From: Phycisphaerae bacterium
GTDB lineage: Bacteria > Planctomycetota > Phycisphaerae > SM23-33
Assembly (NCBI GenBank): GCA_009783465.1
Contig: WRDM01000005.1
Span: 1 to 64,000, forward strand
Direction: 5' to 3'
DNA length: 64,000 bases
A model generated the notes under the pieces. That model was not told the DNA's origin. It did no database searches and saw nothing but the letters and a program-made list of their open reading frames with translations. The position numbers and the translations under genes are program-made. Below are positions 3,859 through 52,057 of this stretch, piece by piece (the first letter of the stretch is position 1; each line of letters begins with the position of its first letter).

Positions 3859-3923
3859 CAGGGCGAACGCATGTACCGTGGCGAGGGCATCTTGCCCGCG
3901 TCACGGTACATGCGTTTGCCCTG
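3859..3923. repeat. Inverted repeat with 22-base arms
   Basis: Arms 3859-3880 and 3902-3923 are complementary with one mismatch. The loop carries a GGGCATCTTGCCC mini-hairpin like those in family A. It sits between the Ntn hydrolase start and the end of purL. The right arm recurs at about 50445-50466. The rest of 3762-4021 shows nothing else. Confidence 0.85.
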
Positions 3924-21066: not shown

Positions 21067-21230
21067 CGTGACGCGGGCGTCTGGCCCGCGTGTGGCGAGG
21101 GCATCTTGCCCTCGCGAACCATTCCGTACGGTTGACGCGGTGAAAAAAACAAGGCTTTCGCACAGCCAGACGCGGGCAAGATGCCCGCGGGACGCGAGGG
21201 CGAGACGCCCGCGTCACGGCATCGCCGCTA
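21067..21230. repeat. Family A repeat between wzz-like and kinase genes
   Basis: Intergenic copy of the GC-rich element: GACGCGGGCGTC-type and CGGGCAAGATGCCCG mini-hairpins at both ends around an AAAAAACAAGG-containing loop. It fills the gap between the two genes without disrupting either. Confidence 0.85.
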
Positions 21231-49714: not shown

Positions 49715-50380
49715 ATGAATATGTCGTCGGTGAACGTGTGGGGGCGGTTGAACTGGCCGAATCGGATCAGCGTGTTGCGGCTGATGCTGGTGGTGCCGTT
49801 TGTCGTGTTGTTGTTGAATCTGCACGATCCCGCGGCGGCGTGGAGCCGGTACGCCGCGCTGGGGATTTTCGTCGTGATGGCCTTCAGTGATTTTCTCGAC
49901 GGCCTGCTGGCGAGGCGGTACAACCTTCGCACGCGGCTGGGGGCGTTTCTCGATCCGCTGGCGGACAAAATTATCATCGTTTGTTCCGTCGTGCTGCTGT
50001 CGATTCCTGCCTTGGCGCCGCGGGAGTTTCACATTCCCGCTTACGTGGCCGCCGCCGTGGTCGGCAAGGATTTGTGGGTCGCCATCGGATCGTTGGTGAT
50101 GTATCGTGTCACGGGAAAGCTGACCATCCGCCCCAGCCGGCTTGGTAAACTGTCCACGGCCGTGCAACTGACAACGGTGATTTGTGTGTTGTTGGTGCCC
50201 GACCTCGAGCGTCTCCGCGCCGGCCTGGGCGTCCATATCGCCTGGGGCCTGACGATCGCCACATTCGTCGTGAGCCTCCTGGCGATCCTCGGTTACACGC
50301 GGACGGGGCTGGATAGGGTCTTCAATGCCCGTGGCGCGAATGGGAGGTCCGTTCGAGGGAGACAAGCCAGTAGCCAGTAG
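49715..50380 (+). CDS. pgsA: CDP-alcohol phosphatidyltransferase (PgsA-like)
   Basis: 221 residues from ATG 49715; ATG 49688 is in frame but has a poorer upstream. The CDP-alcohol phosphotransferase motif D-G-x2-A-R-x8-G-x3-D-x3-D is present in DFLDGLLARR and GAFLDPLADK. Four to six transmembrane helices. The family makes phosphatidylglycerol phosphate, or another phospholipid head group, from CDP-diacylglycerol. The C-terminal residues (VRGRQASSQ) and the TAG stop are encoded by a family B palindrome beginning near 50351. Confidence 0.88.
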   Translation: MNMSSVNVWGRLNWPNRISVLRLMLVVPFVVLLLNLHDPAAAWSRYAALGIFVVMAFSDFLDGLLARRYNLRTRLGAFLDPLADKIIIVCSVVLLSIPALAPREFHIPAYVAAAVVGKDLWVAIGSLVMYRVTGKLTIRPSRLGKLSTAVQLTTVICVLLVPDLERLRAGLGVHIAWGLTIATFVVSLLAILGYTRTGLDRVFNARGANGRSVRGRQASSQ

Positions 50381-50580
50381 CCAGCAGGTATGGAAAAGCG
50401 AGGGCGAAATGGCCGGGGCCTGCGACCGATCACGCCACTTGCGTCACGTTACATGCGTTTGCCCTGGCGAAACGGCAATGAAAACGGGAACGGGTGGCGA
50501 CGTGGCGAATATCTGGATCGTGTGACAGGCAACAAGCCCTGCCATACCTACTGGCTACTGGCTTGCTCCCCTCGAACGAA
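50351..50580. repeat. Family B palindrome carrying an inserted second element
   Basis: Left arm GTTCGAGGGAGACAAGCCAG, right arm ending TTGCTCCCCTCGAAC. Within the loop GGCGAAA occurs at 50403-50409 and again at 50466-50472. The 56 bases between them are absent from other copies and match half of a family G arm plus the 3902-3923 arm. The pgsA stop lies in the left arm. Confidence 0.9.
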
Positions 50581-50616
50581 TCGTTCATTCCTGCCACGAG
50601 TATGGAAAGTCCCACC

Positions 50617-51645: not shown

Positions 51646-51765
51646 GACACGTTCCTTTCACGGGGCTTACGCCCCCGCGGCTCATGATGAAGAATACAGG
51701 AAACCACGGGGAATGTCTAGGGGGCGCAGGGGTTTTCAGCTCTCATGGCACGACGGAATCATCTG

Positions 51766-51936
51766 TTCGAGGGAGGCAAGCCAATAGCCAGTAGCCAGTA
51801 GGTATGGAAAGACAAGGGCGAAACGGCAATGAAAGTGGGAACGAGCGTTGGTGTGGCGACAATTGGGATCGTGTAATGATGAACAATCTTTGCCATACCT
51901 GATGGCTACTGGCTACTGGCTTGCCTCCCTCGAGCG
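51766..51936. repeat. Family B palindrome with short loop
   Basis: GTTCGAGGGAGGCAAGCCAA at the left and TTGCCTCCCTCGAGC at the right. The loop GGGCGAAACGGCAATGAAAG gives the uninterrupted version of the loop at 50401-50480. The rest of the 51646-52057 gap has no recognisable feature. Confidence 0.92.
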
Positions 51937-52057
51937 AGTCGTTCGTTCGCGCCGCGAGAATGGAAAAACCCTGCAGGGTCGCGTAGCGTTGCGTCGCGGA
52001 CTCACTATAATGTCGCTAGTGGCGGATCGTCGTGCGTTGGCCGATGTAGGGAGCAGC

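Follow-up and report, generated by a model that had tools for sequence, protein, structure and literature searches.

Bacterial miniature inverted-repeat transposable elements (MITEs) are short and multi-copy, have terminal inverted repeats and target duplications, and carry no transposase (PMC10969869); that review makes no mention of ISAs1. All of these traits are common to the palindromic elements investigated here in an uncultured Phycisphaerae-related genome (metagenome-assembled genome, MAG, of 2.48 Mb, 69.6% complete), which differ from the MITEs reviewed in forming several families that use one end type and are nested in one another. ISAs1-family insertion sequences (NCBIfam NF033564; for example L081/L262 from the Phycisphaerae MAG JADHXQ01, and L263) have the same terminal sequence as our elements, CAGGGCAA(A/T)CGCATCTAAA, and likewise produce 10-bp target duplications; they are, however, ~1.2–1.3 kb long and encode a transposase, whereas the paired elements here are mostly 147–225 bp, with no transposase seen in them.

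Many short intergenic palindromes, as found here, are also typical of REP/BIME sequences (RAYT) and of IS200/IS605. To our knowledge, REP/BIME sequences moved by RAYT, and IS200/IS605, leave no target duplication, whereas the elements here leave 10 bp, and membership of either group was rejected on this ground. Shared terminal inverted repeats, a 10-bp duplication, short length, many copies and no transposase instead point to ISAs1-type MITEs, with ISAs1 as the putative mobiliser, judging from ends and duplication length. A literature search of partial coverage surfaced no report of ISAs1-type MITEs in planctomycetes. The assignment would tie the dense nested palindromic repeats of such a genome to a specific transposase family, and the fixed 10-bp footprint can be used to order insertions.

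ISAs1-type ends and the candidate mobiliser

An ISAs1-family transposase (NF033564, 416 bits) was found in a relative of the same family (G009), within an insertion sequence of 1.3 kb whose ends read CAGGGCAATCGCATCTAAATT. The right flank of this insertion sequence and the left flank of the corresponding end on L254 are both CCCGCGCCGC, which is therefore the 10-bp target duplication of the element, split across two contigs; the record of a protein identical to the G009 transposase is a Phycisphaerae MAG. A complete ISAs1 element on a Chitinophagaceae MAG contig (L263; transposase identity 49%) has CAGGGCAAACGCATCTAAAT at both ends and a 10/10 target duplication, TGGGGGCAAG. The family X end of our genome, CAGGGCAAACGCAT, matches both L263 ends over 14 bases without a difference, and the end types of related families differ from the ISAs1-type end by 1–2 bases. 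MITE-like pairs with 10-bp duplications, at 9/10 and 10/10, were also observed in the relatives G001 and G035.

Families B, X and X carrying a G palindrome, which had been labelled as separate, have one end type in common, and probably one common mobiliser. A search for the ISAs1 transposase in the genome itself found none; the incompleteness of the MAG or loss of the gene may account for this.

Insertion in the family B loop

The locus lies in a 64,000-nt window, the whole stretch of DNA analysed, and its features are collected in Table 1. The loop of the interrupted family B element measures 146 nt, against 82–86 nt in all other loops recovered from the genome in both orientations, and the element contains DNA without counterpart in the otherwise matching copy downstream, as had been noticed from the sequence alone. 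The gain of 63 bases consists of a 53-bp insert (50414–50466) and a 10-bp target duplication. The sequence-only reading had recognised an insertion with a duplication but divided it as 56 bases plus a 7-base repeat; these lengths and boundaries do not hold, as the terminal CCCTG of the insert ends at 50466 and the G at this position is an insert base.

Table 1 Features of the interrupted family B element and of the copies compared with it (window coordinates)
Feature	Position	Strand	Sequence	Basis or remark
Host family B element, loop interrupted	50314–50615	+	worn ISAs1-type ends TAGGG...CCCAC	paralogues
Left copy of 10-bp target duplication	50404–50413	+	GCGAAATGGC	uninterrupted B loops have one copy of the site
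Right part of G palindrome	50414–50443	+	CGGGGCCTGCGACCGATCACGCCACTTGCG	starts with the CAGGGCC motif from within the palindrome, here CGGGGCC; aligns gaplessly with full elements, L010 among them
Right terminal inverted repeat of family X	50444–50466	+	TCACGTTACATGCGTTTGCCCTG	exact ISAs1-type end pattern match, reverse strand, 50453–50466
Right copy of 10-bp target duplication	50467–50476	+	GCGAAACGGC	adjoins CCCTG
Empty family B paralogue	51727–51973	+	one GGGCGAAACGGCAATG	comparison with interrupted copy
Short family X element	3859–3923	+	both ends, CAGGGCGAACGCATGTACCG...GTACATGCGTTTGCCCTG	no target duplication recognisable

The two target copies are identical at 9/10 positions, one base being different. 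At a fixed register, agreement at 9/10 or better has a chance of 2.5e-4 for unrelated flank pairs and 2.3e-4 for random window positions 53 apart. The GGCGAAA that had been proposed as a 7-bp duplication does lie at 50403–50409 and 50466–50472, but each copy comprises six bases of the longer duplication and one adjoining G, which on the right is the terminal base of the element itself. The normal B loop already contains one GGCGAAA, and two uninterrupted loops contain the 7-mer twice, elsewhere; the 7-mer alone is consequently weak evidence. The concern that the repeat might be a normal part of the loop is thus justified for one GGCGAAA, whereas the 10-mer in register still stands and is the evidence for insertion. 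Mere variation in loop length combined with a chance 7-mer could draw on the same native occurrences, but is refuted by the length of 146 nt against 82–86 nt and by extra DNA that is a recognised element fragment beside a 10-bp near-repeat. The insertion is real, and is a genuine transposition footprint of 10 bp, not 7. The target duplication of the host B copy itself is no longer recognisable.

We examined empty sites by joining the flanks with one target copy and searching by BLAST for uninterrupted paralogues within the same genome, because same-family relatives share mainly gene sequence with it, at ~70% identity. The joined flanks of the interrupted B loop gave 68 hits, and three further nested sites, namely MITEs in H-type palindromes (L037 and L056) and in a G arm (L035), gave 18, 24 and 75 hits, respectively; overlapping loci make these counts redundant, and each of the four filled sites has several distinct empty paralogues.

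The 10-bp duplication across the genome

Element statistics were taken from targeted stretches and describe a sample of the genome. Within 205 kb of its sequence, five CAGGG...CCCTG pairs from three subfamilies were flanked by 10-bp duplications, and none of this length was present at 15 control end pairs. Among 64 sampled paired elements, the flanks of 23 agreed at eight or more positions when compared over exactly 10 bases (11 exact, 7 at 9/10 and 5 at 8/10), with fewer than 0.5 expected by chance (shuffled flanks: 0.16, 0.12 and 0.14, respectively); a minority had 9-bp duplications (5 exact). The end motif CAGGGCNANCGCAT occurred 144 times exactly genome-wide, against 0 for a reversed-pattern control. 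Better-kept family B elements, with CAGGG/CCCTG ends, also had 10-bp target duplications (L051 10/10, L006 9/10, L053 8/10).

These results bear on how the insert arrived. The sequence-only reading had allowed either a target-site duplication or microhomology-mediated insertion. The former agrees with the 9/10 match at the B loop and with the 23 of 64 elements, and the expected duplications at other filled and empty pairs were indeed found, at exactly 10 bp and at nested sites included. A transposase-free insertion, microhomology-mediated or by template switch and with GGCGAAA serving as the microhomology, could appeal to the left target copy, which resembles the G-arm sequence beside CAGGG (GCAAAATGGC, 9/10). 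We strongly disfavour this route, since the length is fixed at 10 bp at unrelated targets, the 23 duplicated elements having different target sequences; moreover, the B family itself varies at the target position (AAATGGCAATG in L042 and L066). The suspected footprint of element movement is accordingly one of transposition, by a 10-bp rule that many further copies in the genome follow. Transposition of this kind, by an enzyme family already known, is ordinary; the genome is unusually rich in repeats, with ISAs1-type MITEs of a Phycisphaerae-related MAG nested unusually densely inside each other.

A search for a strong target motif yielded only a weak preference, for G in the first position and C in the last, which the GCGAAAYGGC of the B loop fits. 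A preference for hairpin loops was considered and dropped: nested insertions lie in loops (the B loop and L013) and in arms (L037, L056 and L035), and no rule is claimed. At L013:1501-1695 (contig C6), an X element carrying G interrupts another palindrome (GGATTAAAAA...TTTTTAATCC) precisely at its midpoint, forming a three-level nest. At L102:1297-1704 (contig C2), there are three copies of TGAAGAAAT, one on either side of two successive MITEs and one between them, as if the same target had been used twice.

Identity and origin of the insert

A search of the genome recovered full-length elements on contigs C8 and C32, of a family with ends CAGGGCRAACGCATG...CATGCGTTYGCCCTG and a family G palindrome inside; in the C8 copy, the entire G palindrome is enclosed by ends CAGGGCGAACGCATG...ACATGCATTTGCCCTG. 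The 53-bp insert aligns with the right part of this copy (L010:1341-1536) without gaps at 45/53 identical positions, and the alignment starts precisely with the CAGGGCC inside the right arm of G. Some 50 instances of a G right arm leading into an X-type right end were present in the sampled genome sequence, the half form being seen once among them. The insert had been described as half a G palindrome with the right arm of the 3859–3923 palindrome attached; this composition is confirmed, and the gapless match with a full element shows that the join is not an ad hoc one. By its alignment, the insert is half of a standard composite element whose left part is missing, and did not arise as a fusion during insertion. 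Only the right end of the element is intact, and its GGGGCC is preceded by an extra C compared with the G arm, which reads GGCAGGGCC in nearly all copies.

We consider it most probable, at about 85%, that an X element carrying G inserted into an older B element through an ISAs1 transposase, and that its left half was deleted later. The host B element would itself be a MITE with ISAs1-like ends, into whose loop the ISAs1-type MITE moved. An ISAs1-family transposase acting in trans would have cut the element at CAGGG/CCCTG, and cuts staggered 10 bp apart would have duplicated GCGAAAYGGC, giving GCGAAAYGGC-CAGGGCRAACGC...CGCAAAATGG-CAGGGCCTGCGG. The left half would subsequently have been lost, the simplest route being a deletion between direct repeats of CAGGGC, one at the left end of the element and one the same motif inside the G right arm; the 53-bp remnant would have stayed behind, still flanked by both complete target copies. 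Such a deletion would yield the arrangement seen today, with its additional C in front of GGGGCC, given substitutions near the junction of one base in the target duplication and one in CAGGGC. Counting against this account, the search of the 69.6%-complete genome recovered no ISAs1 transposase, the two target copies differ at one base, the CAGGGC motif now reads CGGGGC, and the deletion step is drawn from one locus.

Alternatively, the half element may itself have transposed, with the CAGGGCC inside the right arm of G serving as a left pseudo-end together with the true right end, to give 53 bp and a 10-bp duplication. The target duplication abuts CGGGGCC, which differs from CAGGGCC by one change, the additional C compared with the G arm is accounted for, and the product is identical in sequence to that of the deletion model. 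We nevertheless regard this as unlikely: the pseudo-end has only ~6 conserved terminal bases, and no second half-element copy was found among the sampled right ends of X elements carrying G. Two orphan right ends with flanks resembling target duplications (L183 and L030) are open to the reading that they, too, lost an end by deletion at short homology. Given this reading and the single occurrence of the half form among the sampled right ends, we would favour deletion over direct transposition from the pseudo-end at roughly 3 to 1. If pseudo-ends were used, nesting itself would give rise to novel mobile elements that are shorter and have mixed ends.

Other palindromes accompany these elements. 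P-type palindromes, of the GCGGGCGTCTCGCCCGCG and GTAGCACGGGCGTCTCGCCCGTG types, recur in the window at 21067, 23618, 27625, 29547, 30784, 36562, 38661 and 46124. One (ACGTGACGCGGGCGTCTCGCCCGCG..., L010:2030-2144, contig C8) lies in frame inside an ispE-like gene, with a 373-aa frame running through it, which recalls the Rickettsia palindromic elements. The X-P composite pattern had no match in GTDB genome contigs. Near-identical X elements with P palindromes lie ~100 bases from the ends of contigs C15, C17, C20, C32, C33, C38, C43, C48, C52 and C59; because they are so close to many contig ends, they probably break the assembly, and may have been recently active. The C59 and C43 ends have TAGTATAACG in common, and may be two sides of one element.
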